Assembly: GCA_018818205.1 (NCBI GenBank)
Contig: JAHISJ010000019.1
Location: 1-32,919 of the forward strand
Length of the DNA stretch: 32,919 nucleotides
Origin: Patescibacteria group bacterium
GTDB lineage: Bacteria > Patescibacteriota > JABMPQ01 > JAHIRA01
Direction: 5' to 3'
The notes below the pieces were generated by a model. That model worked only from the letters and a program-made list of their open reading frames with translations, made no database searches and was not told the origin of the DNA. The first letter of the stretch is position 1, and the number at the start of each line of letters is the position of its first letter. The position numbers were made by a program, and so were the translations under genes. Positions 4,481 through 25,573 of the stretch are shown piece by piece.

Positions 4481-4506
4481 AATTAAAAATTGAAGCGATC
4501 AAAAGA

Positions 4507-5691: not shown

Positions 5692-5698
5692 ATTATAA

Positions 5699-6852: not shown

Positions 6853-7698
6853 ACTACTTCCGTCATTTTTGTAACGTATAACGCGATGCCATGGCTTCGC
6901 GAGTGTTTTGATTCTCTAAAAAATCAAACACGTACTGACTTTGATATCTATGTGGTTGATAACGGATCAACGGATGAAACTGTCTCAGTCATTGAGAAAG
7001 AGTACGATCACGTTGTTTTAGAAAAATCAAAAGTAAATTTAGGTTTTGGAAAGGGGAATAACGTGTCTATTAAGAAAGCTCTTGGGAACGGTGCGGAGAT
7101 TATTATATTACTGAATCAAGACACTGTTGTACAGGAAAATTTTGTTGAAGAATGTGTAAAGGCAGTTATGGATCCTGCGGTTGGACTTGCAAGTCCTAAA
7201 ATACTCTACAAAGAGAACAATAAGATTTGGTGGACAGGCTCAAAGCTTTTTAGAGGTAAGGATTTGCTTTTTAGACCGCAGTTTCAAATTGCTACTCATA
7301 TTGCAAAAAAAGAGGATGATACTGGTCAATTTGATACAGATACGGAAACTGATTATATTCCCGGTACCGCACTGGTTACTAGAAAAGATGTACTTGAGAA
7401 GATTGGACTTTTTGACGAAGACTTCTTTATGTATAGCGAAGACGTTGATTTGAGTCTCAGGGCAAAAGAAGCAGGATATACACTCAAATATTTCCCCTCA
7501 ACAACCGTGTATCATGATACACCATTTACCAAGAAAAAGGAGAAATTCTCTTTTCGGCGGCTCTGGTTTAAATACTCGAACTACTTTAGAGGAGTAAAGC
7601 GTGTGGTAGACAAACACTTTACTACAAAGGAAAAGATTATCTGGTATGCAAAGCTTCCGTTTACGCTTCTGTTGACGCTTATTTATGAAGTAGTGTAG
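6847..7698 (+). CDS. GT2-family (rhamnosyltransferase-like) glycosyltransferase
   Basis: SVIFVTYNAMPWLRECFDSLKNQT...VVDNGSTDET...LLNQDTVV...DVDLSLRAKEAGY. Confidence 0.9.
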   Translation: MHTTSVIFVTYNAMPWLRECFDSLKNQTRTDFDIYVVDNGSTDETVSVIEKEYDHVVLEKSKVNLGFGKGNNVSIKKALGNGAEIIILLNQDTVVQENFVEECVKAVMDPAVGLASPKILYKENNKIWWTGSKLFRGKDLLFRPQFQIATHIAKKEDDTGQFDTDTETDYIPGTALVTRKDVLEKIGLFDEDFFMYSEDVDLSLRAKEAGYTLKYFPSTTVYHDTPFTKKKEKFSFRRLWFKYSNYFRGVKRVVDKHFTTKEKIIWYAKLPFTLLLTLIYEVV

Positions 7699-9808
7699 TA
7701 AGCAGTGCTCTGTATTCGACTATTTCTTGCTCCGTCAAATTTTCTTTAATAACAAGCTTGTTTGGATCTTTCACTTTTAGAAGTAGTAGACTATTTGACA
7801 CCTCCTCAGTTGTTCTTGGCGGGGTGTTTTTTTGACTCTCTCGTATAACCTTAAGATCCATGTCTGACCCCGAAGTTTTAATGTATCCAAGGATTTGCGT
7901 ACTGGGCTTAAGCGTTTTATAGTTCCATTTTGTCTCTTCTATGAAATCCATATTTAATACATCGTAAAATGGATATTTAAAAGGGGAACTTGTTAGCACG
8001 TAGATATTTTTGTAATCTTTGAGATATGGTTTTAGCGATTCAATACGTTTTTGGTCGTGATAGTGCTTAATATGCATAAGATCAGTAGTATCCGTTTCCC
8101 AGTTTGGATATTTTTCAGTAAGTGCAGGAAGTTCTTCTGCAAAAAAATGATCAGGGTATACACTCAAGTTTGGAATGACGTTTACATCATACAGAAAGTG
8201 CATAGCATAACTCCATTTCTGCCAATCCCATCCTGGTTCCATGAGGAGCAAATCATCATCTGAAAATTCTTTAGAAAAAGAAGAAAGTGTATTAGACATC
8301 CCTTTATTATCAACAAAAGCCAAAACGGGGAGAGCAATGACTATATTGAGAGTTAATACACCAACAAAGACAAGAACTTTCTTTTCTGGAATGAGCTTCA
8401 TCTTCATGAACGAGTATGTCGCGAGAATAATGATGTAAGGGATAAAGACTGCTAAAAATCGTCTCATGAACCAGGGTTGGTCTGGAGCAATGTTGGATTC
8501 AACAAGAAAGATAAATGAGGGAAGCGCAAAAAGGGTTAAATAAAATTGCTTTTTCCCATATATTTTTCTGAAAAGTCCACTAAATACGAGCAGAATAAAA
8601 ATGAAGAAAAAATATAAAATGAGAATTTCGAGTGAAAATTGAATGCGGTAAAAAGACCAGGTAAGTCTGCCTCTAATGAGCGAATAGATGAAATATGTTT
8701 CAACACCCGTGAGTATTATTACTATCGCATACAAAAGTAATCGTTGCCTTTGTTTCTTGTAGTCGTATCTATCACTACTTTTAACAAAGAGGTATAAGCC
8801 AAGAATACCAATTCCAAGAAGTACAATAATAATAAGAAAGAGTGTTGAGAAAGAGCTTAAAGCGCCTTGATACGTTTTAATTTGTGAGAACAGGTATTCT
8901 GCATTAAACTTTTTAAGATATACTCCAAGAAGTACAACCACATAGAGTGGCAGGAGAAGGAGTAAGATGTGTCTTTTTTGAAGGAGCCGGTCTTTCTTAC
9001 TTCTAGGGAGGGTAAAGTAAATTATTGCACTGACCAGCATATAGACGCCAAAGTATATCAGCCCTTCTCCACGAGTAACGAGTAGTAAACTTGCCGGTAG
9101 GAATGAGAGGAAGTACCAGACTGTTTTTCTTGTTTTAAGAAAATTAAAAAAGTACCAGAGTGTAATCCAAAATAATGCAAAAAACAGCATTTCTGAATTG
9201 AGGCGTTTACTAAACCAAAAAGCAACATAAAATGTGCCAAACCATGATACAGCTATAAGTCCTGCGACACTGTTTTTAAATGACTTGGCAATGTAATATA
9301 TGGCAATAAGACCAAAAAAGAGGAGCATGCCATTAATCAAATAGAGGCCGGTCATACCAAAAGCAATGTAGCCACTTCCTAGTGCAGTGATGTAATTTGG
9401 TAGAAATTGTGGTGTGAAGTGATTTTGGTCAATAATCTGAAATCCACTGTAGAGCCCTGCAAATTGATCGGTAAATTCAAGAGAATGATACTTGGTAAGC
9501 TGAATTGCGGAGACTAAATGTACCATTTCATCGCGGCCACGAGTGATGTCATGATGGAAATAAAATGCCAGAAAACAAAAGAGTAGAATAATGAGGATAG
9601 CAATAATATCTTTTGCAGAAAACCAGATTTTTGCTTTGTTTAAAAAGAAATTTTTAACACAAAAAACAAGTACGATTACAATAAGTGCATACCCTACATA
9701 TTTAAAGTTCTCAGCGGTAAAAATGCCAAAAATAGAGAAAGTTAAAGCAATACAAAGCAGGAATGAAAAGACTAAAGCGATTTTTTGGAGGAGTGATTCG
9801 AGTGTCAT
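7679..9808 (-). CDS. Polytopic membrane protein, putative GT-C (GT39/ArnT-like) glycosyltransferase
   Basis: 709 aa with many TM segments; HHDITRGRDEMVHL acidic loop after an early TM and later SKRLNSEMLFF motif, as in GT-C enzymes. Confidence 0.7.
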   Translation of the reverse strand: MTLESLLQKIALVFSFLLCIALTFSIFGIFTAENFKYVGYALIVIVLVFCVKNFFLNKAKIWFSAKDIIAILIILLFCFLAFYFHHDITRGRDEMVHLVSAIQLTKYHSLEFTDQFAGLYSGFQIIDQNHFTPQFLPNYITALGSGYIAFGMTGLYLINGMLLFFGLIAIYYIAKSFKNSVAGLIAVSWFGTFYVAFWFSKRLNSEMLFFALFWITLWYFFNFLKTRKTVWYFLSFLPASLLLVTRGEGLIYFGVYMLVSAIIYFTLPRSKKDRLLQKRHILLLLLPLYVVVLLGVYLKKFNAEYLFSQIKTYQGALSSFSTLFLIIIVLLGIGILGLYLFVKSSDRYDYKKQRQRLLLYAIVIILTGVETYFIYSLIRGRLTWSFYRIQFSLEILILYFFFIFILLVFSGLFRKIYGKKQFYLTLFALPSFIFLVESNIAPDQPWFMRRFLAVFIPYIIILATYSFMKMKLIPEKKVLVFVGVLTLNIVIALPVLAFVDNKGMSNTLSSFSKEFSDDDLLLMEPGWDWQKWSYAMHFLYDVNVIPNLSVYPDHFFAEELPALTEKYPNWETDTTDLMHIKHYHDQKRIESLKPYLKDYKNIYVLTSSPFKYPFYDVLNMDFIEETKWNYKTLKPSTQILGYIKTSGSDMDLKVIRESQKNTPPRTTEEVSNSLLLLKVKDPNKLVIKENLTEQEIVEYRALLTTLLHK

Positions 9809-10866
9809 GAGGTAGTTATTTTTTCTAGTAAGCTTTCATACTGTTTGGCTACTTTGTCCCACGTACAATAATAATTTGTAAAAGTATATGCAGATTTAGA
9901 AAGTGTACGAAGTACAAGGTCGTCATCTAGGAGACTAGTGATTGTTCTAAGAAAGTCAGTTTTGCTTTTCTCAGATATCAGTACTCCCATTTCAGTTTTT
10001 ACGGCATCAGTTGTTCCTTGTATGTTTGAAGCGACAACAGGTGTGCCGTGAGACGCTGCTTCAAGTGCAACAATGCCAAATCCCTCTGGATCATTATTGA
10101 CGGTGATATTAGGCATGATGAACAAATCAGCTTCTGTGTAGAGCTTTGTTCGCTCCATATCAGACACTGAATCTACCAAAAAGACATTCTCCAGCTTTTT
10201 TTGCTGGATTGCGTTTATTATATCAGACTTCTCTGGTCCATTTCCAACAATAATATACACTATATTTTGTGGAAGGGCTTCTGCCACGTTTTTTACAAAC
10301 CATAAAAATCCTTTTCTTTTGACCAGTCGTCCGAGAGATACGATTACTTTTTTATTTTCTAGAGACCTATTGATCAGTTTTTCAAGAAATATTCTTGGTT
10401 TTGGAAAAATAAAGGGCTGCATATTTTTGACGATGCCGTTTGGGATAACAGAGATTTTATCACTAGGTATACTGCTTTTTTCAGCAAGTGCTTTTGTGTA
10501 TGTGCTTACCGCTACGATGCTATCAGCGTGCTTGAGCGAGTTTACATTTAATGTTTGGTGAAGCTTGGAAGGGTGAGTTATATCAAGTCCATGTATAGCA
10601 ATAGCTGTCGGTTTTTTTGTGAGCTTCTTAATGATTTTTGCCATAAAACCAAAGACTGCATCCCCATACAAAATAGTATCGTACTTATGTGCGTTAATAA
10701 GCGTTTTTGTAAATGCGTAGGTCAAAAACCATATCAAATGTGCGTTTGGTTTTTTTAGTGCGATAAGCTTCTTTTTTGTTTTGAGGTGCTTAAAAAGTTC
10801 GTATGAAAAGGTCTCCATTCCTCCCTTCTCAGGCGGATATTTTCGCGTAACAAAAAGCACACTCAT
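9805..10866 (-). CDS. GT4-family glycosyltransferase
   Basis: MSVLFVTRKYPPEKGGMETFSYELFKHL...IVSLGRLVKRKGF...PEGFGIVALEAASHGTPVVAS. Confidence 0.9.
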   Translation of the reverse strand: MSVLFVTRKYPPEKGGMETFSYELFKHLKTKKKLIALKKPNAHLIWFLTYAFTKTLINAHKYDTILYGDAVFGFMAKIIKKLTKKPTAIAIHGLDITHPSKLHQTLNVNSLKHADSIVAVSTYTKALAEKSSIPSDKISVIPNGIVKNMQPFIFPKPRIFLEKLINRSLENKKVIVSLGRLVKRKGFLWFVKNVAEALPQNIVYIIVGNGPEKSDIINAIQQKKLENVFLVDSVSDMERTKLYTEADLFIMPNITVNNDPEGFGIVALEAASHGTPVVASNIQGTTDAVKTEMGVLISEKSKTDFLRTITSLLDDDLVLRTLSKSAYTFTNYYCTWDKVAKQYESLLEKITTS

Positions 10867-11822
10867 TAGTCTCTGTTAGGTGAAGAAAATTCGTTCTTTT
10901 TCTCTCGATACAGCGTTTCTTCAAGTATTTTTCTGTTCCATCCAATTGCCGATGAAATAAGTGCAAGAACTGCAATTTGGAAGCCAATAATCATGAGCGC
11001 TGAGGCCAAAATGAGAGATTGAATGTGGCCTTCACCGCCCATAGTAATATAATAGTAGAAAAATCTAAGGACCACAATGAGCCCGAGAAGGAATATGGAC
11101 CCACCAATAAAGAGCATGACTCTAAGCGGCTTATAAATCGTGAGAATTCTTAAAATAACAATCAGTGACTTAAAGATATGAACGGGGACGTTGTTAATGA
11201 GTCTTGAGGGACGTTCTACGTTTCTTGCAGGAATATCAATGCAGGCAAGGGCTATACCATGATCATATGCTTGAATGAGCGTTTCGTGTGCGTAGGTATG
11301 ATCGGAAAGGACATTTATTTTAAGTGCCGCATCTCTTGAGTATGCTCTAAAACCTGAGGATGCGTCCACTTTAAGGGGGATACGTGCAATTTTTCTGACA
11401 AAAAAACTTCCAAGCGTATTTCCGAGTTTTTTTGAAAAGGGCATATCTGTAAGCTCCCAAATATTTCTGTTTCCCACAACAATCTCGGCTTTTTTCTTTA
11501 GAATCGGCTCAATAAGTTTAGGGATTTGTGTTTGGTCATAGTGGTTGTCAGCATCGGTGTTTACAATGATATCCGCATCTCGCTTGAGTGCTTCTTCAAT
11601 AGCTCGTTTAAACGTACGGGCGAGCCCCTTGTTTTGAGGCTGAGAAATGACCCAGTCTGCACCTGCTTTTTTAGAAACGGATACGGTATTGTCTTTTGAG
11701 CCATCATCAAGAATAAGGATCTTTACGTCCGTAATACCTTCTATTGACCGCGGGATTTCTTTAATCACTTCCGCTATTGTTTGCTCTTCATTTAGAGCCG
11801 GAATGATTACGACGAGTCGCAT
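10866..11822 (-). CDS. GT2 dolichol-phosphate mannosyltransferase-like protein with C-terminal TM helices
   Basis: VVIIPALNEEQTIAEVI...ILILDDGSKDNT...NTDADNHYD; two C-terminal TM segments. Confidence 0.88.
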   Translation of the reverse strand: MRLVVIIPALNEEQTIAEVIKEIPRSIEGITDVKILILDDGSKDNTVSVSKKAGADWVISQPQNKGLARTFKRAIEEALKRDADIIVNTDADNHYDQTQIPKLIEPILKKKAEIVVGNRNIWELTDMPFSKKLGNTLGSFFVRKIARIPLKVDASSGFRAYSRDAALKINVLSDHTYAHETLIQAYDHGIALACIDIPARNVERPSRLINNVPVHIFKSLIVILRILTIYKPLRVMLFIGGSIFLLGLIVVLRFFYYYITMGGEGHIQSLILASALMIIGFQIAVLALISSAIGWNRKILEETLYREKKNEFSSPNRD

Positions 11823-13272
11823 ATGTCTTGAGATAATGAGGTAACTGTTTTACGTAGAATACCTCTTTTTTGGTAAAAAATTTGAACAGAATAAGAATGA
11901 GTACAAAGAGTGTTAGAGATACACATTGTATCATAAGATCAATGGGAAGCAAGGAGCTTTTGAAAAGTAAATGGACACTGAGGGCTAATGCAGCGGCAAA
12001 GAATGCTATGACGAGTCGCTTCTTTTCATACACAAATGCGTAGTATTTTTGGACCAGCGCTACTGTCAAAATTCCCATAAAGAGGAACGAGATAAACGTG
12101 GTTATGGCTGCTCCTATCATACCATAGGGTGGGACAAGGAGGTAGTTTAGAATAATGTTCAACAGAGCAGGAAAAACAATGAGGATAGGGTAGAGGTGCG
12201 AGCGTTCCTTAAGATGCAAGCCCACCACCACAATGTAGTGAATGCCAAGAAATACGTATGAGAGTGTCACTGGGAGGACAATAATAGATGCGCCCTCGTA
12301 CGCGTTTGTCGCAATAATGCGTATGATATGTGTACTGAAAAAGGTGAAGGTAAGTGCAATAAACAGTGCAATCGTTACAAAGTAGGTGAGTACTCGTCCA
12401 TACATTTTTCTTGCGTCGGGCTTATCTGCAAGCGAAAAGGAAACAGTTGGCCAGGCTAGCTGGAACGGCGTAACAAGCATAATAGCCATGGCAATGCCAA
12501 ATTTGTACGCAAGTGAATACACACCCACCTCTGCAAATCCATGATAGTGATTAATAAAATATCGGTCGATAAGGTCCATAACCCAAAGTGCAAGACTTGC
12601 TGGGATAATAGCAAGACCAAATACCAATAGTTTTTTAAATAGTTTCTTTGAAAAAGTAAACGAAACATTTTTGAAAAAGGTGGGGAGAAGCAAAAGAAGC
12701 GTGATGCTGTTTGCAAGAAGTAGACCAGTCAAAATGCCCTCTATGCCTTTTTTAAAGACTAAAACAAGCGTAACGTTGAGTCCTAAAATAAGAAGAAAGC
12801 GTATAATGTAGATTACCGTGTATTTAATCGACTGTTCATTTGACCGGAGCATAGAAAATCCCAGATTTCCAATAATCAATGCTAAAGCAGAGGCAAAAAT
12901 AATATAGAGGTACGTTGTTTTTCCAAAGTTAAATACTGATGCAATAGGATCTACAAAAAGAGAGAGTATAAGGAGTAGTGTGGTTGCAAAGATAAGTACA
13001 AAAAATACTGCAGTTCCCGCAAGCTTTTTCTTTTCTTTTTCCTTATTTATGTCTCGCTCAGCTGTTTTTATATACGCAGACGCAAATCCCAAAGAAAGGA
13101 CACTCACCAAGATAAGAGAAATGGTGTTTAAGAGCTCGTACTGTCCGTAATCGGCAACAGAGAGTGTTTTTGTGTAAACAGGGATCAAAAGAAGACCCGC
13201 AATTCCTTGAATTCCGGAGCCAATGGCGTAGATAAACGAGTGTTTAGTAAGTCGTTTTAAGCCCTCAATCAT
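11788..13272 (-). CDS. Polysaccharide flippase (Wzx/MOP superfamily)
   Basis: HSFIYAIGSGIQGIAGLLLIPVYTKTLSVADYGQYELL, polytopic; ORF extends to 13308 but ATG 13272 (MIEGLKRLTKHSF) is more plausible. Confidence 0.85.
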   Translation of the reverse strand: MIEGLKRLTKHSFIYAIGSGIQGIAGLLLIPVYTKTLSVADYGQYELLNTISLILVSVLSLGFASAYIKTAERDINKEKEKKKLAGTAVFFVLIFATTLLLILSLFVDPIASVFNFGKTTYLYIIFASALALIIGNLGFSMLRSNEQSIKYTVIYIIRFLLILGLNVTLVLVFKKGIEGILTGLLLANSITLLLLLPTFFKNVSFTFSKKLFKKLLVFGLAIIPASLALWVMDLIDRYFINHYHGFAEVGVYSLAYKFGIAMAIMLVTPFQLAWPTVSFSLADKPDARKMYGRVLTYFVTIALFIALTFTFFSTHIIRIIATNAYEGASIIVLPVTLSYVFLGIHYIVVVGLHLKERSHLYPILIVFPALLNIILNYLLVPPYGMIGAAITTFISFLFMGILTVALVQKYYAFVYEKKRLVIAFFAAALALSVHLLFKSSLLPIDLMIQCVSLTLFVLILILFKFFTKKEVFYVKQLPHYLKTYATRRNHSGSK

Positions 13273-13332
13273 ATACTTCACGGTAGCAGAAAATGGGGGA
13301 CTCGGCAATGATGTGGGAAATCGCGTAGTTTG

Positions 13333-13394: not shown

Positions 13395-14498
13395 ATGAAA
13401 AAAATACAGTGGATTGTTCCGCTCCTATTTTTGTGTAATTGCATTCAGCATTCAGTGGTTGAAGTGAAAGTTAAAAAAAGTGTACCTATTGTTTCTAAAA
13501 GGAAACTGGTACGTACAAAAAAGGTGCAAAAGCCTTTGAATGTTCGTTTTTATACTGATACAAAAAAGTGTCAGAAAGTTGGCAATTTTGAGCAATGTTT
13601 TACCAAATTATCATCGTATTGTGCAAGCGGCTATAGAGCTACGTTTATCTTACAAAGTAAGCATGTGATGTTTGCTTGTTACGATTGCTGTCCTTCAGAC
13701 TTACTGGTACTTAGAAAGTCATTAACACTTCAAGAAAAAGCGTATAGTTGTGTGTCACGTTTCTTAGGGGTTATATCTAGAAATCATGGAAGAGATGTGA
13801 TGATCAACTTACAACCGGGGAATAGTATCAAACAAGTTGGTGTTGAAAATAAGAAGGGTATTCCTTTGAGAGGGCGGCCTATGGTTATTTACCGACTATA
13901 CCATCTTAAAAAACCCATAAAGATTAAGAAAGGTAAGTGTCAAACAGCGCCTATGCATGTTCGGGTCAATTATGCGACAGCACCGGGGTTTATAGGTTGG
14001 CTGTGTTATGGCAAAAAACGTGTTACCGATACAGATCAAGTGTTTATGGACCTTCATGAGATGGGACACTCGCTTATTGGTATTTCTATGATTAAAGATC
14101 TTCCTAGATGGTTTGAGGAAGGACTGGTAATCCAAATGTCTAACCGAATGAAATGTCATAATTATAGAGGTGATACCTCTGACGGTTCGAATAAATGGGT
14201 TTTACAGTTAAAGAAAGTTTGGAAGCTTCTTAAGAAACGGAAGAAAATTCCCAAGAAGTGGCGTACACTCTTGGGAAAAAAGGATAATCATTTTGTTGGT
14301 AGTCTCTTTTTTGCCGCGTTAGAAGTTGAATTTGGTTGCACACTTGAATGTGCGCGCAAAATTTGGCGTGGGCTTTATAATGAGTATTTTGTGAAGCGCT
14401 ACATTAAGCTTGATAATCGTAAAATTCGTGAAATTGTTGAGCGCGTTGTTAAAAATAAAGGGCGTGTTCGCAAGATCTTTAGGAGGTTAGGATTATGA
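13395..14498 (+). CDS. Putative lipoprotein with zincin (HEMGH) metallopeptidase-like motif
   Basis: GGAGGA SD; signal peptide and Cys (LFLCNC); HEMGHSLIGISMIKDLPRWFEEGL (HExxH...P.WxxEG gluzincin pattern); Cys-rich. Confidence 0.75.
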   Translation: MKKIQWIVPLLFLCNCIQHSVVEVKVKKSVPIVSKRKLVRTKKVQKPLNVRFYTDTKKCQKVGNFEQCFTKLSSYCASGYRATFILQSKHVMFACYDCCPSDLLVLRKSLTLQEKAYSCVSRFLGVISRNHGRDVMINLQPGNSIKQVGVENKKGIPLRGRPMVIYRLYHLKKPIKIKKGKCQTAPMHVRVNYATAPGFIGWLCYGKKRVTDTDQVFMDLHEMGHSLIGISMIKDLPRWFEEGLVIQMSNRMKCHNYRGDTSDGSNKWVLQLKKVWKLLKKRKKIPKKWRTLLGKKDNHFVGSLFFAALEVEFGCTLECARKIWRGLYNEYFVKRYIKLDNRKIREIVERVVKNKGRVRKIFRRLGL

Positions 14499-15598
14499 AA
14501 AGTACTGTGTGGCTAAAAGCAGCACTTCTGTTTTTTATTATTGCGCATGTCGATTCTGTCTATGCACGTTCACGTAAAATTGTGCTGGTACAGCGTAGTG
14601 TGGATAGTACTTGTAGGGGCGTTCAGAGAAGATTTGAGAGTGAGTTCAAAAAATCGTTTCGATCACACACTATTAACGTTGTTCGGTTTTCTTCGCTTTA
14701 CAGGATTTCTGGCAATAACAGTAGTATGTTTGTTGCTCGGATGAATCGCCAGTATCGAAAGGGTTTTAGATTTGTTGTTGAAGCAGATTGTCGTGATGAA
14801 CAAATGGATTCAGTTGTTGCACATAACGTATTGTTTGTTCGAGTGCATAAAATGAATCAACTCGGCGCACTTTCTGTGTTGTTTGCTGGAATCGGTTTTT
14901 TGCGAGTGCCTAGTGAAGATGATTTGCACTTCTTTAAGAAGAAATACAATTTATCGTTTCACCATTCTTCTCGTATTCCAGATTTCTTGAAATATCTTAA
15001 GCATTATTTTAGAACTGGCAAGAATCTAAAAGTTCAGAGAATTACTGGTTCACAAAAGCATTCCGTATCACAGAAAAAATATAGAGTGACGACCAAGATT
15101 TTAAAGAAGAACATTGTTAAACGTCTTCCCTTTGGCTTAGATGTAGCATTTGTTATGTATACGCCACTTGTAGGGATTTCTACTGCGATAGGTCTTCTTT
15201 TGGGCGGTCTTAATCTAAGGTTGTTTGTGAGAGACGAATGGTTTGTAGAATTTGGTGCTCTTTTTGGGAAGTCAATCAGTGACTACTATAGTTATGGGTG
15301 CGATATTGGTGCAGGCTATCGTTTTGTATTATTTAGAACTATAAGTGATGCTGAGATTGCCGTTTCGCCAGTGCTTAATTACCGAGGCTTTTTTGTAACA
15401 AAGTCAGGGCCTGGCATGTTGTATACCATGCACCATATTTTTGCAGCAGCTGAGATTGCTTTGGAGGTTGGTTCTAATCTACGCTTAAAAGTATTTTTTT
15501 CTCTGGGGATTGGTCCGGGATTTTACTTAAGAAGGACGTTGTATGGAGGCTTCTCTACATTGGTATTAGGAAAGATTGGGCTAAGTCTGTATTTCTAA
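14495..15598 (+). CDS. Exported protein with N-terminal globular domain and predicted C-terminal beta-barrel (barrel paralog 1)
   Basis: ATGA overlap with the previous gene; SD TAGGAGG; signal peptide; alternating C-terminal strands ending GLSLYF*. Confidence 0.7.
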   Translation: MKSTVWLKAALLFFIIAHVDSVYARSRKIVLVQRSVDSTCRGVQRRFESEFKKSFRSHTINVVRFSSLYRISGNNSSMFVARMNRQYRKGFRFVVEADCRDEQMDSVVAHNVLFVRVHKMNQLGALSVLFAGIGFLRVPSEDDLHFFKKKYNLSFHHSSRIPDFLKYLKHYFRTGKNLKVQRITGSQKHSVSQKKYRVTTKILKKNIVKRLPFGLDVAFVMYTPLVGISTAIGLLLGGLNLRLFVRDEWFVEFGALFGKSISDYYSYGCDIGAGYRFVLFRTISDAEIAVSPVLNYRGFFVTKSGPGMLYTMHHIFAAAEIALEVGSNLRLKVFFSLGIGPGFYLRRTLYGGFSTLVLGKIGLSLYF

Positions 15599-15611
15599 CA
15601 AAAAATTATTT

Positions 15612-15642
15612 GGTCTACTCTATTTTGTGGTAGGCCTTTTTT
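15612..15642 (+). terminator. Rho-independent terminator of the 13395-15598 operon
   Basis: GGTCTAC-tctattttgtg-GTAGGCC followed by TTTTTT. Confidence 0.7.
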
Positions 15643-15684
15643 GTTCGCAAAAGATGATGGATCTATTATTATCTAGAATATGCC

Positions 15685-15712
15685 TTGACTCCCTATGTTT
15701 TTTTGCTACTAT
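15685..15712 (+). promoter_or_regulatory. Putative promoter of the structured RNA
   Basis: TTGACT (15685-15690), 16-bp spacer, extended -10 TGC-TACTAT (15707-15712). Confidence 0.6.
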
Positions 15713-15718
15713 CTACAT

Positions 15719-16147
15719 CAGTGATTATTTAGCATTCCTTAATTTTTTGACCATTTGGTCTCAATAAAACTAGACACGGAATGCTAAATTATCAAAAGAG
15801 TGAGTGGAATAAGTGCTGCAGAAAGGATTGGCTTTGTGTTAGAACGAAAGCCTCAAAAATCATCGTTTTGAACGAGCAGCACGTGGGGTTTGTTTTTGGG
15901 AGAAGTAAGGCAAATGTTTTTTCAAACTGCAAAAACAATGCTTAACAGGGAGAACACCACCCACCAGCTTCATGAATGTCGTGAGAATACACGAGAAGAA
16001 AGGCATTAAGGCAAAAGACATAGACATTCACTGAAGCTGTAAATAAAGGTCGCCTGACCACGACCAACTTGTGCCGTCCTGGCATACAAATCACTCTTTT
16101 GATGAATATCATTTGCCCGAGACACCTAGTGTTTTGGGCTTTTTTTT
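15719..16147 (+). ncRNA. Candidate large structured noncoding RNA, family not recognised
   Basis: No ORF in the supplied track in this gap; promoter at the 5' side; many complementary helices listed in the findings; strong intrinsic terminator at the 3' end. Confidence 0.7.
16115..16147 (+). terminator. Strong intrinsic terminator of the candidate RNA
   Basis: GCCCGAGACAC-CTA-GTGTTTTGGGC (11-bp stem with G-U pairs) followed by 8 T. Confidence 0.9.
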
Positions 16148-16154
16148 ATGCAAA

Positions 16155-16208
16155 TAAAAAACCTACTACATTTGCAAGAATCATCAGTGATCTCAGGTGT
16201 GGTAGGGG
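16155..16208 (-). terminator. Possible terminator of the minus-strand MopE/LamG gene
   Basis: Minus strand CCTACCACA...TGTAGTAGG-TTTTTTA, one mismatch and a long loop. Confidence 0.45.
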
Positions 16209-16214
16209 TAATTA

Positions 16215-17606
16215 TTAATGATAATATCTGAGCTTGTACAAAACTGATATTTCTTTATCCGTTAACGCTCTGCTTAAATAAATAATGCTTCTGTATCGAG
16301 CTTTCATGTGGTTGTCAGTGTATACCCCAGTTTTTGGATCCCAAGAAATATACATATAAGAAGATAGTGGGGCTGGGCTACATTTGATGTTTATTGCAGT
16401 GCCATCAAGTGTACCTTCAACATAAAATTTAATCATTGGGGTTGCTTTGTCATATACATAGGCAAAATGTATATGTTTGTTAACCTGAAACAACGTCGGT
16501 GCGCTGCTGTCCGTCCCCTGGCCACAAGATCCAACGTACTTTTTTGACCGGTGACTAAGGTTTAACGAAGTTCCAGGTGATCGAATAATGAATGATGCTC
16601 CGCTTGTGGGTACGCTTGTTACGTATGCAAAGACTATAATTGTAAAGGATTCTACGCTTGTCGTTTGAAGGGGAGAAATGTTGGTAATAACCGCGTATCC
16701 TTTGGTAGAAGTATCGAAATATGCTCTAGATAAATATGTTTTAACTACACCACCATTTTTAATAATAGCGTGTTTTCCTTTTCCAGAAATGTCCGGAATT
16801 TTCGTGGTGTCCTTTTGATCTGGGATCAAAAGAAATTCTAGCGCGGAGCAGTTAGCTTCATCTGTTTGACCATCACAATTATCATCGATTATGTTCCCAC
16901 AGATTTCAACACCATAGCTGCCACAGCATTTTCCATAGATACACATCTGAGAGCCTTTGCAGACGTTTCCACAGCTTCCACAGTTATTCTTATCTTGCTG
17001 CAAATCAAAGTCTTCATCTGTTTGACCGTCGCAATCATTGTCTTTCCCATCGCATGTTTCAGTTTTGGGGTAGGTTATCTGAAGGCAGGCCAGAGTTCTA
17101 TTAACACATGTGAAGGCTGCATCAGAGCAGATACCTGGAGTTCCGGTTTTGCAAGGTTTTCCAATTAATGGGCTAAACTTTTCACATGGGCCATCATCTT
17201 CAGGCTTGGGAAGTATCTCCTGCGAGGGTTCTTTTTCCGGTAATTGCGTTTCTTCTGAAATGGTCTTTCTTTCTGAATACTCTGAATGCTCAATCTCAAT
17301 TTCTTTGGGAATTTCCTCTGGAAGTACGCTTGCATCATGTAAGTCAGAAACATGTTCATCTTTGAGTTTCTCGTGCTTCTCATGAGAATATTCAGTGATT
17401 TTTTCAGGCTTTGTGTTTTCTTCATTCAAGACTTCTTGAGAAGTCTCTTGTGTAATTAAACGAACACAAGAATTGTCTTTGGTACAATACTGAAATAGGG
17501 GGCAGTCGTCATGATAAACACACTCAGGTTTTTTAGGAGGATCTGCACAATTGAGCGTAAGAAGAAAAAGTAGAGTACTGACGTACAAAAAAACAGTTTT
17601 TTTCAT
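16215..17606 (-). CDS. Lipoprotein with MopE-like Cys/Asp repeats and C-terminal LamG/concanavalin-like domain
   Basis: ATG 17606 (MKKTVFLYVSTLLFLLTLNC) after GGAGGGAGAC; CDGKDNDCDGQTDEDF and DDNCDGQTDE; E/K/S-rich linker; LamG-like C-terminus. Confidence 0.82.
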   Translation of the reverse strand: MKKTVFLYVSTLLFLLTLNCADPPKKPECVYHDDCPLFQYCTKDNSCVRLITQETSQEVLNEENTKPEKITEYSHEKHEKLKDEHVSDLHDASVLPEEIPKEIEIEHSEYSERKTISEETQLPEKEPSQEILPKPEDDGPCEKFSPLIGKPCKTGTPGICSDAAFTCVNRTLACLQITYPKTETCDGKDNDCDGQTDEDFDLQQDKNNCGSCGNVCKGSQMCIYGKCCGSYGVEICGNIIDDNCDGQTDEANCSALEFLLIPDQKDTTKIPDISGKGKHAIIKNGGVVKTYLSRAYFDTSTKGYAVITNISPLQTTSVESFTIIVFAYVTSVPTSGASFIIRSPGTSLNLSHRSKKYVGSCGQGTDSSAPTLFQVNKHIHFAYVYDKATPMIKFYVEGTLDGTAINIKCSPAPLSSYMYISWDPKTGVYTDNHMKARYRSIIYLSRALTDKEISVLYKLRYYH

Positions 17607-17738
17607 GTCTCCCTCCAATTTGAGAGTAAAAGAATAACAGAGTTCGTAAGGTGATTTATATTATGGGACGTTTTACCAAAAAAATCAAGAGTATTGATTA
17701 TTTAAAATGTCATAAAAATAGAAAAGCCTCTATCGTTC

Positions 17739-17767
17739 TTGACACAGGGCTTATATAAAGTTATATT
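17739..17767 (+). promoter_or_regulatory. Near-consensus sigma70-type promoter
   Basis: TTGACA (17739-17744), 17-bp spacer, TATATT (17762-17767). Confidence 0.8.
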
Positions 17768-17800
17768 AAAGAGCTTCTTTTACACATTCTGGAGGGATTT

Positions 17801-19318
17801 ATGAAATATTGTTTTATCACCACACTATTTTTTCTACACACTTTTGGGTTTGCTTTTGCAAAGAGTAACCCTACATCTAAGAGGGCATTTTCTGCTATCC
17901 CGCTTACTATTTTGCAGTTTAACGGATCACATAAGTGTCCAATTGTTCATGAGGAGGCATTAGTACAAATTTTGAACGTATATGCATATTTTCATCCTGA
18001 TTTTAAGCGAGGTAAACACGCTGTTAAATTGCGTTTCAAAAGTGCTAAAAGTCGCTATAAACAAGAAAAAGCTCGACTAAAAGAGCTACTTTCTAAAAAG
18101 GATCGTGCATTTATTCGTGAGACAAAAAAACTTGAGAAACGTTGGACAGATAAAGGGCAAGAGCAGCAATACCAGAAGCTCGAGCAAGCGCATATGCGCT
18201 TTTATATTGCCTATCCAAAAATGTTCAACAAAAATGTAGAGCAGCTTGAGCGTGCAACTTTTGCAAGGAGACTGGCGCTTCTGAGAATCGGACTCAAAGT
18301 TATGAAGAATTCCGTTGTTGTACTAAAAGACTGGGAAAACTCTGCAGATTATATGCGCAATAAATTACGTGAACACGCAAAAAAGGGTATGCGCTATTTT
18401 TACTTGATGCATTGTGCACCATCTGCGTCGACGCACATTCTAACGATGTATTTTGCAGAAATGATTGGGACGGACATGTGGCGACCACTTACTCCCAAGC
18501 GAGCATTTTACTTTGGATCACAGGTAATCTTAAAAAGTGATCCTACCTTTTATGAGAAAAAACGTTGGTTGGTACACATAGTTAATAAAGGAGACATTCT
18601 AGCAATAATGTCTACGAGATCCTTAAAACTTAAAAATGTCTCAAAAAAGACCAGGAGTGATAGGAACGACGGAAATTTTGCTCATTTTAGGGATGCGTAC
18701 TGGAGAAAGTATCGTGTACAACTTATGTCTACGCTGTTAATACCACTTTTTGCTGACCGTACAGCGGCATTTGCAAAAAATGGTAAGAAAAAGCCATTAC
18801 GCTTTGCCGCAGACTCGAGGCCGCTTTCTGGGCTTTTAAGAGAGAAATCGAATGGATACTGGTCACTGCATGCAGAATCGACATTACTTGGTGATATTCT
18901 TTCTCCTAAATATACCTTTGCTATTCATGGAGGGCTCGGGCTGTATCTCACATTAAATACCTCTTTTAGTTTAAGTGTAGGCGTTGGCTTTGGGGATGGA
19001 TTTGGAAGAAAAGGGCTGAGAGTTATCTCATATATTGGTACGTATAGCTTTTTAGGGCAATTGTCGTTTTTTGAGTTCAATTTTCACACACGTTTTTATG
19101 TGTCATTGAGACTAAGCACAGGGAAAATTAGAGAGACCATGTATGCACTTGTGGTAGGGCCAAGGCTTAGTATTGATCCTGCTTTGCTTTTTAAAAGGCG
19201 AAGTAGGATGCGTGTGCGTCTTATGAGTCTGATTGGACCTGCTCTTAGACGTAAAACGAGTACATTAGATGCTGGATTTCTTTTTGTTGCGCTTGCTGGG
19301 TTAAGCTGGCAGTTTTAA
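17801..19318 (+). CDS. Exported protein with predicted C-terminal beta-barrel (barrel paralog 2)
   Basis: SD GGAGGG; signal peptide MKYCFITTLFFLHTFGFAFAK; C-terminus alternating strands ending LAGLSWQF*; similar to the 19651 gene product. Confidence 0.75.
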   Translation: MKYCFITTLFFLHTFGFAFAKSNPTSKRAFSAIPLTILQFNGSHKCPIVHEEALVQILNVYAYFHPDFKRGKHAVKLRFKSAKSRYKQEKARLKELLSKKDRAFIRETKKLEKRWTDKGQEQQYQKLEQAHMRFYIAYPKMFNKNVEQLERATFARRLALLRIGLKVMKNSVVVLKDWENSADYMRNKLREHAKKGMRYFYLMHCAPSASTHILTMYFAEMIGTDMWRPLTPKRAFYFGSQVILKSDPTFYEKKRWLVHIVNKGDILAIMSTRSLKLKNVSKKTRSDRNDGNFAHFRDAYWRKYRVQLMSTLLIPLFADRTAAFAKNGKKKPLRFAADSRPLSGLLREKSNGYWSLHAESTLLGDILSPKYTFAIHGGLGLYLTLNTSFSLSVGVGFGDGFGRKGLRVISYIGTYSFLGQLSFFEFNFHTRFYVSLRLSTGKIRETMYALVVGPRLSIDPALLFKRRSRMRVRLMSLIGPALRRKTSTLDAGFLFVALAGLSWQF

Positions 19319-19332
19319 AAGGAGAGAAAATA

Positions 19333-19491
19333 ATGAAAAGAGCATTTGTACCTCTTATTATTGGCTTAGCTGTTTATTTCTTGTCAAGTTTCCTGTATAT
19401 TGTCGTTGAAGTTGATCGAGAGTTTCTGAAAAAAAATAATGTTATGTGGTGTTTGGATACTTTTTGCAGTTCTATTTATGATTGTGAATAA
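19333..19491 (+). CDS. Small single-TM protein (52 aa)
   Basis: SD AGGAGAG; MKRAFVPLIIGLAVYFLSSFLYIVVEVDREFLKKNNVMWCLDTFCSSIYDCE*; shorter than the smallest ORFs listed in the supplied track. Confidence 0.6.
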   Translation: MKRAFVPLIIGLAVYFLSSFLYIVVEVDREFLKKNNVMWCLDTFCSSIYDCE

Positions 19492-19502
19492 AACTTTGTG
19501 CG

Positions 19503-19535
19503 AATGGGTGATCTTAATCTAGGTCACCCATTTTT
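19503..19535 (+). terminator. Rho-independent terminator
   Basis: AATGGGTGA-tcttaatctagg-TCACCCATT followed by T tract. Confidence 0.8.
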
Positions 19536-19582
19536 GATACCAAAAAAAGAGCTGTGTGTACTATAAAAAATCTTGTTATATT

Positions 19583-19617
19583 TTCACGCTTGACTATATA
19601 GAAAAAAGATGGTACAT
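19583..19617 (+). promoter_or_regulatory. Putative sigma70-type promoter of the 19651 gene
   Basis: TTGACT, 17-bp spacer (ATATAGAAAAAAGATGG), TACATT. Confidence 0.65.
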
Positions 19618-19650
19618 TATGGAGCTTTTTTGAAAATAACAGGAGGGATT

Positions 19651-20790
19651 ATGAGATACACTTTTTTTCTTAGCATCATCATCTGTATTTTTTGTTTCAA
19701 TTCAAGCAATTCCTTTGCGAAAAAGAACATTGTTGGGATTATGTATTTTGTGCACAAAAGTATTCGTAAGGAACCCGATATCTGTAGAGGTCTTATTGAT
19801 CGATTTGTGAAAACCGTTAAAACAAGATTGCCATTTCATACTATTAAATTGGTGCGGTCGTGGGAGATTGGAACGAGTGTTTTAAAGCACATTAGAGATT
19901 TAAATCTGCAGGGAATGAAATACTTCTTCACCGTTAAATGCAGTGTTATATGTAATTCACGCGCACTTACTGTTTCTCTTAATGTGGTACCAAGGCCATG
20001 TTGGATAGAGGTCACCCTTGGTAGTAGAACGTGGAAATGCAAGATTGAGTATAAAACAACCACTGCTGCATATTATTTTGGTGACAAGCACGGGATTCAA
20101 GGTGGACTTAAAGCAAAAAAATCTACTTACAACTATTTTGGTGTAAAAGTAAGAAAGATGGCTTTAGAGCAGTATCACAAGTTGAGAAACGTGTATGCCA
20201 GTCGGTACAACTTGCCACTCTATCCGCCAGAGCAACTTTCACGAGACATTGGTTATATGGCGGATTTAATTACGGGAAGACGAGACTCATACGATCTTAT
20301 CTTGACGCGACATATGAGCAAATGTGGCATGTCACTTCTTGCGGTTGGTTTTGCTGACACGCTTAAATTACAGTCGTATCACTCGCTTTCTGGAATGCTT
20401 GAGGTATATTATATTCTGGACAGAAACGTTACATTACGATTTTCTTTTGGAGTAGGCGAGGGGCTTAAAAATAGGGGAGTCAGGACGCAGTTTTTTGCGG
20501 GTGTTTCATACTTAATTTTTGAGCGGTGGCGCAGCGGCTTTCAGCTTAATGTTGGCCTTTTGTATACTGGTCAACTTGCGTTTTCCCAAACCAAAGTTAG
20601 GTTTCATTTGCATGGTGTTCTTGTGGGGCTTGAAGCGTCTTTAGATCCTGCAGTACTTATTAATAGAGACAGTTCGTTTCGATTATCACTTAGAACAATT
20701 ATTGGACCTGGTGTACGTATCGGTAGCACAGGAATGCCGTATTTTGCATTGCCAGCGAGTGCATTGTTTGGTCTATCATATCAGTTTTAA
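19651..20790 (+). CDS. Exported protein with predicted C-terminal beta-barrel (barrel paralog 3)
   Basis: Start reassigned from 19609 to ATG 19651 (SD AGGAGGG); signal peptide MRYTFFLSIIICIFCFNSSNSFAK; C-terminus ends ALFGLSYQF*. Confidence 0.75.
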   Translation: MRYTFFLSIIICIFCFNSSNSFAKKNIVGIMYFVHKSIRKEPDICRGLIDRFVKTVKTRLPFHTIKLVRSWEIGTSVLKHIRDLNLQGMKYFFTVKCSVICNSRALTVSLNVVPRPCWIEVTLGSRTWKCKIEYKTTTAAYYFGDKHGIQGGLKAKKSTYNYFGVKVRKMALEQYHKLRNVYASRYNLPLYPPEQLSRDIGYMADLITGRRDSYDLILTRHMSKCGMSLLAVGFADTLKLQSYHSLSGMLEVYYILDRNVTLRFSFGVGEGLKNRGVRTQFFAGVSYLIFERWRSGFQLNVGLLYTGQLAFSQTKVRFHLHGVLVGLEASLDPAVLINRDSSFRLSLRTIIGPGVRIGSTGMPYFALPASALFGLSYQF

Positions 20791-20925: not shown

Positions 20926-22089
20926 ATGAACATACTCATATTTAACATGAGTTCGTATTCTGAGTGGACAAAAAAAGACATTCCCAATAGGAATCGTCAT
21001 GTGCTTTTTGAATTGCTAAAAAGACCCGATGTAGAAAAAATTGTATCAGTCGATTTTATGCCGTTTACAAAAAAGAGAGCACTCCGCATGTATATGGAGG
21101 ATTTTTTCCATGGTGATGGTGAGGTGATTTCAAAAACTGCCTTTGATGTCTTGAGGAAGGTAAACAAGAAGCTCTATATCTATACTTCGGTAAGATCCGC
21201 ACTTTTTAGTGAAGATGCCTTTTATGCTCATTTAAAGAAAAGGCTTGAGAAGATTGATATGAATACCTTTGTTTTGTGGTCATATTTTCCGTATTATGTG
21301 GGTTATTTTGACTACTTTTCTTCCGCACAAAAAAAGGTCTTTGATACGGTTGATGATTGGAGTAAACATCCAAATTTTTCTGAAAAAAAAGAACAGCTTG
21401 AAGCAAATTATAAAACCATAGATAAAAAAGCAGACGTGGTATTTACGGTGTCTGAAAAACTTAAAGATATCTATCCAAGCAACAATAATGTTCATTGGAT
21501 ACCAAATGGGGTTGATTTTGATCATTTCCAAAAGAAAATAGACAAAGAAGACGAGGTAATAAAAAGACTTAAAGAGATTAAAGAACCACGGGTAGCGTAT
21601 GTTGGTATTATTCAAAAGCGAGTTGATTTTGAGTTGGTTGCTCGCGTTGCAAGGATGAACCCACGTGTCTCTTTTGTGTTCTTTGGCCCTCTTTGGCCAG
21701 ATGCAGAGGATGAAAAAGTGCGGAGTTTAGACAATGTGCATTTGCTTGGTCCGGTGAGATACGGTATGTTGCCAAAAGCGCTCAGTTTATGTAGTGTAGG
21801 CATGATTCCTCACGTGGTAGATGCGTTTACTGACACTATGAATCCGTTAAAGATGTACGATTATTTAGCAACTGGTCTTCCTGTGGTAACTACTTCAGTT
21901 GCAGGAGTAGGGAAGTATAGTGATGTAGTAACGGAAGCTACAAGCACTGAGGCGTTTAGTAGTGCAGTGCAACATGCGATTTTGTATTCTAAAAATGAAC
22001 ATATGCAAGACAAGAGACGAGAAGTAGCAAAAAAATGTTCGTGGAATCGTACGGTCAATGCTATGATGTCAGTAATTAAAGACACTTAA
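20926..22089 (+). CDS. GT4-like glycosyltransferase
   Basis: VFTVSEKLKDIYP...NVHWIPNGVDFDHF...AYVGIIQKRVDFELV...GMIPHVVDAFTDTMNPLKMYDYLATGLPVVTT. Confidence 0.87.
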   Translation: MNILIFNMSSYSEWTKKDIPNRNRHVLFELLKRPDVEKIVSVDFMPFTKKRALRMYMEDFFHGDGEVISKTAFDVLRKVNKKLYIYTSVRSALFSEDAFYAHLKKRLEKIDMNTFVLWSYFPYYVGYFDYFSSAQKKVFDTVDDWSKHPNFSEKKEQLEANYKTIDKKADVVFTVSEKLKDIYPSNNNVHWIPNGVDFDHFQKKIDKEDEVIKRLKEIKEPRVAYVGIIQKRVDFELVARVARMNPRVSFVFFGPLWPDAEDEKVRSLDNVHLLGPVRYGMLPKALSLCSVGMIPHVVDAFTDTMNPLKMYDYLATGLPVVTTSVAGVGKYSDVVTEATSTEAFSSAVQHAILYSKNEHMQDKRREVAKKCSWNRTVNAMMSVIKDT

Positions 22090-22094
22090 ATTCT

Positions 22095-22967
22095 ATGGAT
22101 CTCTCAGTTTTGATAGTCAATTGGAATACCAAAGATCTTCTTAAGGAATCGCTTGAGAGTATTTTTGCGTATACCAGAGAAATCGATTTTGAAGTTATTG
22201 TTTTTGATAATGGCTCTACCGATGGCAGTATAGAAATGGTAAAATCTGAATTTCCTGATGTGGTTTTGATTGAAAGTCCAGAGAATAAGGGGTTTGTTGT
22301 AGGAAATTTAGAGGGGTATAAAAAGAGCACCGGGAAATATGTAGTGATGTTTAATAGTGATGCGTATTTAAAAAGTGATGCTTTTTCTACAATGGTGAGC
22401 TATTTGGAAAAGCATAGTAATGTAGGTATCCTTGGTCCTAAGCTCTTGTATCCAAATGGTGATTTGCAGGAATCATGCAGACGATTTCCTGATTTTACAT
22501 CGCAAGCTATGATTTTGCTTAAACTTCATAATCTTTTCCCACATTTTGGGCCTATTTCTCGCTATTATATGCGTAATTTCTCGTATGACAAGACGAGTGA
22601 AGTCGATCAAGTAATGGGAGCGTGTCTTGTAACTAGACGATCTATTATTGAGGACATTGGTTTTTTAGATGATACATTTTGGGCATGGTTTGAGGAAGTT
22701 GATTATTGTAAGAGAGTGAAGGATAGGGGATATATAAACATTTTCTATCCGGGGATAGCGGTGTATCATCATAAAGGGCAGAGCTTTAAAAATCTTACAA
22801 AACGACAGCGTCTTTTTAATACGAGTATGCGGTATTATTTTAAGAAACATAAACCGTACATACAGTATTTGGGGATCACAGCGCTCTGGCCTGTAAGCAT
22901 GATACTTTCATACCTTACTCAGCTTATAGTCTACGTGTTTCCGGTCAAAAAAGATAAAAATCTATAA
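22095..22967 (+). CDS. GT2-family glycosyltransferase
   Basis: DLSVLIVNWNTKDLLKESLESIF...VFDNGSTDGSIEMV...FNSDAYL. Confidence 0.9.
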   Translation: MDLSVLIVNWNTKDLLKESLESIFAYTREIDFEVIVFDNGSTDGSIEMVKSEFPDVVLIESPENKGFVVGNLEGYKKSTGKYVVMFNSDAYLKSDAFSTMVSYLEKHSNVGILGPKLLYPNGDLQESCRRFPDFTSQAMILLKLHNLFPHFGPISRYYMRNFSYDKTSEVDQVMGACLVTRRSIIEDIGFLDDTFWAWFEEVDYCKRVKDRGYINIFYPGIAVYHHKGQSFKNLTKRQRLFNTSMRYYFKKHKPYIQYLGITALWPVSMILSYLTQLIVYVFPVKKDKNL

Positions 22968-22970
22968 ATT

Positions 22971-24548
22971 ATGTTTACATCTGAGGTTAAAAAAATTGGT
23001 CTCCTGGTATTGCTGGGCTTCGGACTCTACCTTCTTTCTTTTGTTGGGTATCTGTCCCCCGTATTAAATAGCGTGTTTTTTTGGGTGATACTTTTTGTTG
23101 CGGCATTTTTTACGGTCAAAAAACTTGAGTATGGTGTTTTGTTTTTACTGTTTGAGCTTGCAATAGGGGTAAAAGGGTATTTGTTTTCTTTTAATCTCTT
23201 GGGGTTTGTTGTTTCTCTACGATTAGCACTCTTTGCGCTTGTTTTTCTGATTTGGCTCTACAGAGTGATTAAAGAAAAGAAGCCTATTAGATTTGCTCAG
23301 TCTAAACTGTTTCCAGTCTATGCGTTGTTTACACTCTATATAGTGGTTGGCATGATTTTGGGCCTTGCACACGGAAACTCACTTAAAAACGTCTTTTTTG
23401 ATGTAAATGGATACTTCTATTTTGCGTTAGCGTTTCCGTTGTTTCAGGTATTTTATACAAAGAAGGCATATAAAAAACTCATCAGCGTGCTTATTGCAGG
23501 AGGGATAACTATTAGCCTTTTTTCACTTTTTGTTGCGCTTGAATTTACGTTTTTACATCAGGATTCACGACCTGATCTTGCTGAAGCGGTATCTACTGAG
23601 CTTACGCTTGAAGATGCAGACGATGAGGAAATGAGGGAAAAACTCTCACATTCTGTTACCGCAAAAGACGAACTTAAAGAAAGTTTTGGTCTGTCTCGCA
23701 ATTTTGAAAATCAAAAACCACCCATTTACCGGTGGACACAAGATGTGAGTATCGCAGAAATATCGTATCTTGCGGGGCCGTTTTTTAGAGTGTTTTCACC
23801 GGGACAGATATACTCACTTGCGCTCTTTATCATTGCACTTTTTTTCTTATTCCATACATTCTTAAGTAAAAGCAAAAAAGAGGTGCTTCTAAAGTTACCA
23901 CGGTGGTTTTTAATTGGAGCGCTTGCTCTTTCCGGTGTTGTGGTAATTTTAGGCTTTTCGCGTAGCCTTTGGCTTGGCATGCTTGCAGCAATTATTTACG
24001 GACTTTTTTCTGTACCGTTTAAGAAGGCAATGAAGATTGTATTTTGTGGTGTCGTGGTGCTTATTATTGCGGTGCTATTGCTTGTTTTCTTAGCACCGAG
24101 TGCCTATTCGCTTATTGAAGGAAGAGTTACCAGTATTATCAATCCATCTCAAGAGTCATCAGGGTCAAATAGAATCAATGTGCTTGGACCTGCGCTTGAT
24201 CAAATTTGGGAAAATCCTTTGTTTGGAACTGGCTACGGCACTACCATTGAATATGAAAGTGTTGTGCCTGAGAAATACGGTACGCTCAGAGTGTTTGCCT
24301 TTGAATGGGCATACCTTGATACTATTATCGAGATTGGCGTGGTTGGCTTGTTTTTATACTTTGTACTTTTATTTTCAGTTATCACGCGACTCGGGTATAG
24401 GGGGTATGTGTTTTATCAGGCACTGCTTTTTGCGCTTCTTGTTGCAAACATTACCACACCGTACTTGAACCATCCTTTAGGGATAGGACTAGTTCTTATT
24501 GGTATGGTGCTCGCAGAACGTAAAGCGATTCATAAGAAAAGTAAATGA
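22971..24548 (+). CDS. O-antigen ligase/polymerase-like membrane protein
   Basis: Polytopic; GSNRINVLGPALDQIWENPLFGTGYGT motif typical of the Wzy/WaaL family. Confidence 0.82.
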   Translation: MFTSEVKKIGLLVLLGFGLYLLSFVGYLSPVLNSVFFWVILFVAAFFTVKKLEYGVLFLLFELAIGVKGYLFSFNLLGFVVSLRLALFALVFLIWLYRVIKEKKPIRFAQSKLFPVYALFTLYIVVGMILGLAHGNSLKNVFFDVNGYFYFALAFPLFQVFYTKKAYKKLISVLIAGGITISLFSLFVALEFTFLHQDSRPDLAEAVSTELTLEDADDEEMREKLSHSVTAKDELKESFGLSRNFENQKPPIYRWTQDVSIAEISYLAGPFFRVFSPGQIYSLALFIIALFFLFHTFLSKSKKEVLLKLPRWFLIGALALSGVVVILGFSRSLWLGMLAAIIYGLFSVPFKKAMKIVFCGVVVLIIAVLLLVFLAPSAYSLIEGRVTSIINPSQESSGSNRINVLGPALDQIWENPLFGTGYGTTIEYESVVPEKYGTLRVFAFEWAYLDTIIEIGVVGLFLYFVLLFSVITRLGYRGYVFYQALLFALLVANITTPYLNHPLGIGLVLIGMVLAERKAIHKKSK

Positions 24549-25531
24549 GGCCACTAGTAAGCGTTATTATTGTTACGTTTAATAGTGAGCGGTACCTACC
24601 GCATCTTTTTAAATCGATTAAAAATCAGACATGGTATGAGAAGTGTGAAGTGATTGTTATAGATAATGATTCTAAAGACGGAACGAAAAAGATAGTGCAC
24701 AATGAGCACTGCAGTGTCATTGAAAATAATGATAACGCAGGATTTGCAAAAGCGAACAATCAAGGCATAGAACGTGTAATGGGGGACTATATCTTTTGCC
24801 TAAACCACGATGTTATTTTGGAAGAAGACTATATAGAAAACCTAGTTACTTTTTTGGAAGAACACAAAAAAGCTGGAGCAGTATCAGGTACGGTTAAAAA
24901 ATGGGATTTTGCAAATAGAAAAAAGACAGAGAAAATAGATACGCTTGGCTTTAAGATGTATAAAAATCATAAAGTTGTCGATATTACAGAAAAACCGGAT
25001 GGGGACCTTCCTTCATATGATGTGTTTGGTGTTTCTGCTGCTGTGGTAATGTACCGTAAATCATGTTTAGATACTCTTCGGGATATTTCTGGTCACTACT
25101 TTGATGATGATTTGGTAAGTTATAAGGAAGATGTGGATATAGCGTATCGTATCTTGCATGCGGGATACACGTCGAGTATTGTGCGAGATGCCGTGGCGTA
25201 TCATGATAGGTGGGAGACGGGGAGTGGGCAATCAAGCGTTAAGCAAAAAAGAGAAGCTCGTAAATCAAAACCCGTTTTTATTAATCAGCTCAGTTATCGA
25301 AATCATTTGATAGTTCTTTTTAAGAATGAGTTTTGGTCAAATCTCCTTATTTATTCAGTATTCATTCTTTTTTTTGAATTGCAGAAGTTTGTATATTTTC
25401 TTTTGTTTGAGCCAAAAACGGTGCTTGGGCTGGGGCAGTTTATTAAGGCAATTCCTTTGACTCGTGCAAAAAGACGTGCTATTTTTAATAAGACGACCAT
25501 TTCTAAGCAAGATATTAGAAAGTGGTATTAG
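24545..25531 (+). CDS. GT2-family glycosyltransferase
   Basis: VSVIIVTFNSERYLPHLFKSIKNQT...VIDNDSKDGTKKIV...EDVDIAYRILHAGY. Confidence 0.9.
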   Translation: MRPLVSVIIVTFNSERYLPHLFKSIKNQTWYEKCEVIVIDNDSKDGTKKIVHNEHCSVIENNDNAGFAKANNQGIERVMGDYIFCLNHDVILEEDYIENLVTFLEEHKKAGAVSGTVKKWDFANRKKTEKIDTLGFKMYKNHKVVDITEKPDGDLPSYDVFGVSAAVVMYRKSCLDTLRDISGHYFDDDLVSYKEDVDIAYRILHAGYTSSIVRDAVAYHDRWETGSGQSSVKQKREARKSKPVFINQLSYRNHLIVLFKNEFWSNLLIYSVFILFFELQKFVYFLLFEPKTVLGLGQFIKAIPLTRAKRRAIFNKTTISKQDIRKWY

Positions 25532-25536
25532 TGGTA

Positions 25537-25565: not shown

Positions 25566-25573
25566 AATGTACT

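Follow-up and report, generated by a model that had tools for sequence, protein, structure and literature searches.

A candidate stand-alone structured RNA gene of no known family between two envelope-protein genes of a small bacterial genome

The large structured non-coding RNAs closest to the one described here are GOLLD, ROOL and OLE. GOLLD and ROOL are encoded by phages or prophages, often close to tRNA islands, and GOLLD RNAs are in many cases longer than 800 nt (PMC12286853). OLE, of ~600 nt, comes from Gram-positive bacteria and has protein partners (PMC9723947). Here, we describe a candidate RNA gene in a window of 32,919 nucleotides (the whole stretch of DNA that was analysed) and compare it with these RNAs. 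Like GOLLD and ROOL, it would be a large bacterial RNA with many branches that stands alone, has no assigned function and lacks an obvious protein partner, but it is only ~430 nt long, lies near neither a tRNA nor a recognised phage gene and matches no Rfam model. With OLE, which is membrane-associated, it shares the character of a large structured RNA and neighbours that encode envelope proteins, although it is again shorter (~430 nt) and without an Rfam match. A sequence-only reading of the window had likened the candidate to this group, and the likeness stands as an analogy, whereas its smaller size, the missing Rfam match and the lack of nearby tRNA or recognised phage genes speak against membership.

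Rfam 15 gave no match in the window at gathering score, and a relaxed search with 4227 models at E<=5 gave nothing credible (best E-value 0.16, every score falling well short of its gathering score), so that the Infernal check proposed with the sequence-only reading brought up no known family. The GOLLD, ROOL and OLE models had no match in the window even at E<=5, nor did the RNase P model, the tmRNA model or ARAGORN, and no tRNA was found there; phage matches were likewise absent, the window genes being polysaccharide and envelope genes by Pfam. The candidate resembles RNase P RNA and tmRNA in length and folding-energy z-score but matches neither model, and both RNAs are encoded elsewhere in the genome, well over cut-off (C7:39565-40002, 182.8 bits, and C6:55454-55871, 114 bits, respectively), in agreement with the earlier observation that the candidate lacks their features. 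In the open-licence literature, we found no paper describing an RNA like this from comparable bacteria. The features of the locus, in window coordinates, are as follows.

14495-15598, + strand: upstream gene for a secreted protein with an outer-membrane-barrel-like C-terminus ending in F (judged from sequence only)
15612-15642, + strand: terminator-like hairpin GGTCTAC/GTAGGCC with T6, 3' of the upstream gene
15685-15712, + strand: promoter-like site, TTGACT, 16-nt spacer and TACTAT, with a TG-extended -10 (TGC before the -10)
15719-16147, + strand: proposed non-coding RNA gene, ~429 nt, based on a z-score of about -7, entropy and high-confidence pairs
15728-15788, + strand: predicted 5' hairpin, 11 bp (15728-15738 with 15778-15788, pair probability P 0.75-1.0), GACC-ATTT-GGTC inside
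15789-15806, + strand: predicted 5' arm of the body-closing stem P1, pairing with 16087-16105
15813-15882, + strand: predicted P2 domain, GTGCTGC/GCAGCAC with GGCTTT/AAAGCC and TCGTT/AACGA inside
15883-15964, + strand: predicted P3 domain, 15883-15887 with 15960-15964, 15891-15897 with 15950-15956, 15908-15912 with 15939-15943 and 15915-15921 with 15931-15937
15965-16039, + strand: predicted P4 domain, 16-bp stem (15965-15980 with 16023-16039) with one bulge and a purine-rich loop
16048-16065, + strand: predicted P5 hairpin GGTCG/CGACC (P 0.95-0.96)
16070-16086, + strand: predicted P6 hairpin, 16070-16075 with 16081-16086 (P 0.78-1.0)
16087-16105, + strand: predicted 3' arm of P1, from the pair-probability ensemble
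16115-16147, + strand: intrinsic terminator, 11-bp stem (16115-16139) followed by eight T (16140-16147)
16156-16206, - strand: terminator-like hairpin CCTACCACA/TGTAGTAGG with T6 of the converging gene (read from the sequence)
16215-17618, - strand: converging gene for a lipoprotein-like protein with a MopE metal-binding motif and Laminin_G_3 (Pfam)

The promoter-like site and the terminator, both of which the sequence-only reading had pointed out, are present and bracket the predicted fold. The promoter-like site matches at 9 of 12 positions and places the predicted transcription start at ~15718-15720; four such sites were observed in the scanned stretch against 2.1 expected in shuffles, and since about two would occur there by chance, the match alone is weak evidence and the promoter plausible rather than shown. 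The terminator stem has a pair probability of 1.0. A terminator-like hairpin, read by eye in the sequence because its loop exceeded the limit of the terminator scan, separates the upstream gene from the RNA. The gap between the two neighbouring genes (15599-16214) holds no ORF longer than 56 aa on either strand, its short ORFs have no significant match in Pfam, and, in line with the sequence-only reading, there is no credible ORF or message in 15685-16147.

The predicted fold of the candidate transcript (RNAfold, -139.4 kcal/mol) consists of a 5' hairpin and a stem of 13-14 bp, P1, that closes five domains, P2 to P6. P2, P3 and P4 are directly contiguous, with no spacer bases between them, and the closed fold contains nine G-U pairs and few long single-stranded stretches. 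Most of the helices picked out by eye in the sequence-only reading reappear in it. The arms of the 5' hairpin, at their full length of 17 nt (15722-15738 with 15778-15794), are 94% complementary, as expected of the 17 bp with one mismatch around GACC-ATTT-GGTC that had been described, and the perfect body-closing helix forms the 13-bp core of P1 (15791-15803 with 16091-16103, P 0.96-1.0). Likewise, GTGCTGC/GCAGCAC and GGCTTT/AAAGCC lie where they had been placed, within P2 (outer 7 bp P 1.0, inner pairs P 0.3-1.0), CAGCTTCA/TGAAGCTG (15965 with 16032) continued by GAATGTC/GACATTC is found in P4 (P 0.8-1.0), and the GGTCG/CGACC and TGCC/GGCA segments are complementary. Two of the proposed helices are complementary but not favoured by the ensemble: TCAAAA/TTTTGA, because TCGTT/AACGA (15863-15875) is preferred, and TTGTTTTT (15890) with AAAAACAA (15931), because 15891-15897 pairs instead with 15950-15956 and 15915-15921 with 15931-15937 in P3, where P is 0.74-0.98 for most pairs. 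The suggestion that the 5' hairpin and P1 might be mutually exclusive through a shared ATCA (15791-15794) did not hold: these bases touch only the four outermost hairpin pairs, with P of ~0.01 there and ~0.98 in P1, and the remaining 11 outer-stem pairs of the hairpin coexist with P1, so a conformational switch is not supported by the pair probabilities. A further helix joining the 5' and 3' ends (15720-15725 with 16108-16113), present in one minimum-energy fold, is weak (P 0.11-0.17) and is not claimed.

Single-sequence folding is, according to a review, no evidence of functional structure (PMC8250186). The predicted fold is non-random, being better and better defined than composition predicts. 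Its energy z-score is -6.8 to -7.4 in three runs, and -6.0 to -6.5 without the terminator; of the domains taken alone, the 5' hairpin (-5.7) and P4 (-5.1) fold strongly, the P5-P6 stretch (-2.9) and P2 (-2.1) moderately, and P3 (-0.6) is unremarkable. Folding is more favourable for the + strand (z -7.4) than for the - strand (z -5.5), which is what G-U pairing in an RNA would lead one to expect. None of 1000 dinucleotide shuffles contained a 13-bp Watson-Crick helix whose arms were separated by 200 nt or more. The low entropy (0.37 bits/nt) and the proportion of bases paired at P>0.9 (0.45) were likewise matched by none of 200 shuffles and by none of 400 segments of 429 nt drawn at random from this genome. 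By both measures, the genome's own RNase P RNA (entropy 0.73, 36% of bases in such pairs) and tmRNA (0.63, 38%) are less well defined than the candidate, whose energy z-score of about -7 is on a par with that of the former and exceeds that of the latter. The long-range energy gain is not unusual, since 12 of 100 shuffles attain it. Sampled from 14 pieces of 20 kb and the window, the genome's intergenic segments have a mean z-score of -2.8 (sd 2.1), and the candidate's z-score alone, which is upper-tail and not unique, overstates the case because strong hairpins are common in the genome's intergenic DNA. Two other intergenic stretches came to attention in the same genome: L041:9281-9478, where two very strong hairpins (z about -9) lie in AT-rich surroundings whose composition is atypical, and L037:17422-17871, which forms several strong stems (z about -8), matches no Rfam family and is possibly a leader or another structured RNA.

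No relatives of the candidate were recovered. A blastn search of 60 related genomes found no homolog, and one of 389 genomes of the phylum at loose E-values returned only short chance matches, the best of which (32 nt, in genome G336) lies at the start of a frame read by eye as leucyl-tRNA synthetase. A covariance model of the whole body, built on this one sequence with its predicted fold, was run on 98 relatives, 389 phylum genomes and two further classes, and recovered nothing besides the original copy except for one chance match in the latter. Its sole other genome match at E<=0.01 (in G410, 62 nt at 18.2 bits, with E 0.0015 when one genome is searched) falls inside a 311-aa reading frame and is expected by chance, as ~420 genomes of the phylum were searched in total, the sets overlapping. 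The candidate has one copy in its own genome by the same model, and neither blastn of phages and plasmids nor exact-pattern scans of viral contigs gave a match. This absence of homologs is not proof of absence, because filters were stricter in searches over more than 40 genomes, a model built on one sequence reaches only so far, and just one other genome represents the window's family. The earlier claim of a structured RNA bracketed by a promoter-like site and a terminator of its own is well backed by sequence statistics, with no homologs and hence no covariation to add to them; known from one sequence, the candidate counts for now as well supported but not as a defined class.

The host appears to belong to a candidate-phylum, Patescibacteria-like lineage; its genome is small (1.4 Mb), those of the phylum being mostly 0.5-1.4 Mb. 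Positions 224-13308 and 20926-29638 of the window make up a surface-polysaccharide cluster, with genes for glycosyltransferases, a flippase, an O-antigen ligase-like protein, a DUF4012 protein, an S41 protease and a polysaccharide deacetylase with FG-GAP repeats; an 857-aa protein encoded at 1907-4480 has no Pfam or NCBIfam match. Between the two parts lies a segment of 7.4 kb (13395-20790) that encodes the MopE/laminin-G protein, a lipoprotein-like protein carrying an HExxH motif and three distantly related secreted proteins whose C-termini end in F and are putatively barrel-like. Two of the barrel-like proteins share 23% identity across 352 aa (E 8e-15) and the third aligns at ~20%; the one next to the candidate (14495-15598) matched nothing in Pfam or NCBIfam, and the AlphaFold model of the protein at 19609-20790, with a mean pLDDT of 47.7, was too weak to be of use. 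No further member of the barrel-like family turned up in the rest of the genome or in 30 relatives, protein scans of the genome and of viral contigs for relatives of the neighbours found none, and Omp85 was undetected in the genome and 10 relatives, although control genomes with outer membranes responded. The segment is also atypical in composition: its tetranucleotide usage correlates with that of the genome at 0.49, where the median is 0.685 and the 5th percentile 0.536. From its composition and gene content, it is probably a horizontally acquired island, or possibly an assembly chimera.

Several other explanations of the locus are less likely. The perfect 13-bp inverted repeat spans 313 bp, and inverted repeats are common in this genome's intergenic DNA, as might be expected if the stretch were a hairpin-rich intergenic sequence or a miniature inverted-repeat element without function as RNA, the P1 arms being its terminal repeats. 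We consider such a DNA-level element unlikely: the covariance model has one match in the whole genome and no second copy, the interior P4 domain folds strongly (z -5.1), the fold is strand-asymmetric and the whole is bracketed by a promoter-like site and a terminator. A miniature inverted-repeat element in particular, for which several copies and a target-site duplication would be looked for, is disfavoured, as the candidate is single and no such duplication lies beside the repeats. The position between two envelope-protein genes, one of them converging, and the standard intrinsic terminator at the end would also suit a regulatory RNA that base-pairs with these or other messages, yet both neighbours have terminator-like hairpins of their own, so that no overlap is evident, and the closed fold leaves few long single-stranded stretches; there is at best a small chance of this.

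Retron RNAs have ends that pair with each other. The ends of the candidate's body are predicted to do the same, and by this analogy it could be the RNA part of a two-part system (e.g. a retron or a guide-RNA system) whose protein partner is located elsewhere or has been lost; no reverse transcriptase or nuclease is found among the Pfam-scanned window proteins, and blastn of phages and plasmids found no copy, which makes such a system improbable. Size and branching, which recall large ribozymes and the large ornate RNAs, would fit a strongly diverged member of a known family, a possibility rendered very remote by the 4227 Rfam models, none of them giving a credible match even at the relaxed threshold, and by the presence elsewhere in the genome of its RNase P RNA and tmRNA, both well over cut-off.

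By computation, the locus has promoter-like and terminator sequences, no credible ORF, a non-random, well-defined predicted fold, a single copy and no known family. A leader of one of the neighbours is unlikely because terminator-like hairpins stand on both sides and the next gene converges, and with no downstream gene for leader control and no credible message, a trans-acting structural RNA is the best reading. We therefore regard 15719-16147 as probably a stand-alone, trans-acting structured non-coding RNA gene of no known family. Transcription would begin near 15719 from the extended -10 promoter and stop at the intrinsic terminator at 16147, and the RNA would fold into the 5' hairpin beside P1, with P1 closing P2 to P6. 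Its most likely mode of action would be in trans, not as a message but as a folded scaffold or an RNA-protein particle. The more ambitious proposal, that it represents a new large structured RNA class, carried by a candidate-phylum bacterium on a horizontally acquired envelope-gene island and serving at the cell surface as a scaffold or an RNA-protein particle, is speculative and, in our view, rather doubtful. Few large bacterial RNAs without an assigned function have been described, and some of them, GOLLD, ROOL and OLE, proved to form unexpected multi-subunit complexes; another such RNA in a poorly studied, small-genome lineage would thus be worth probing.
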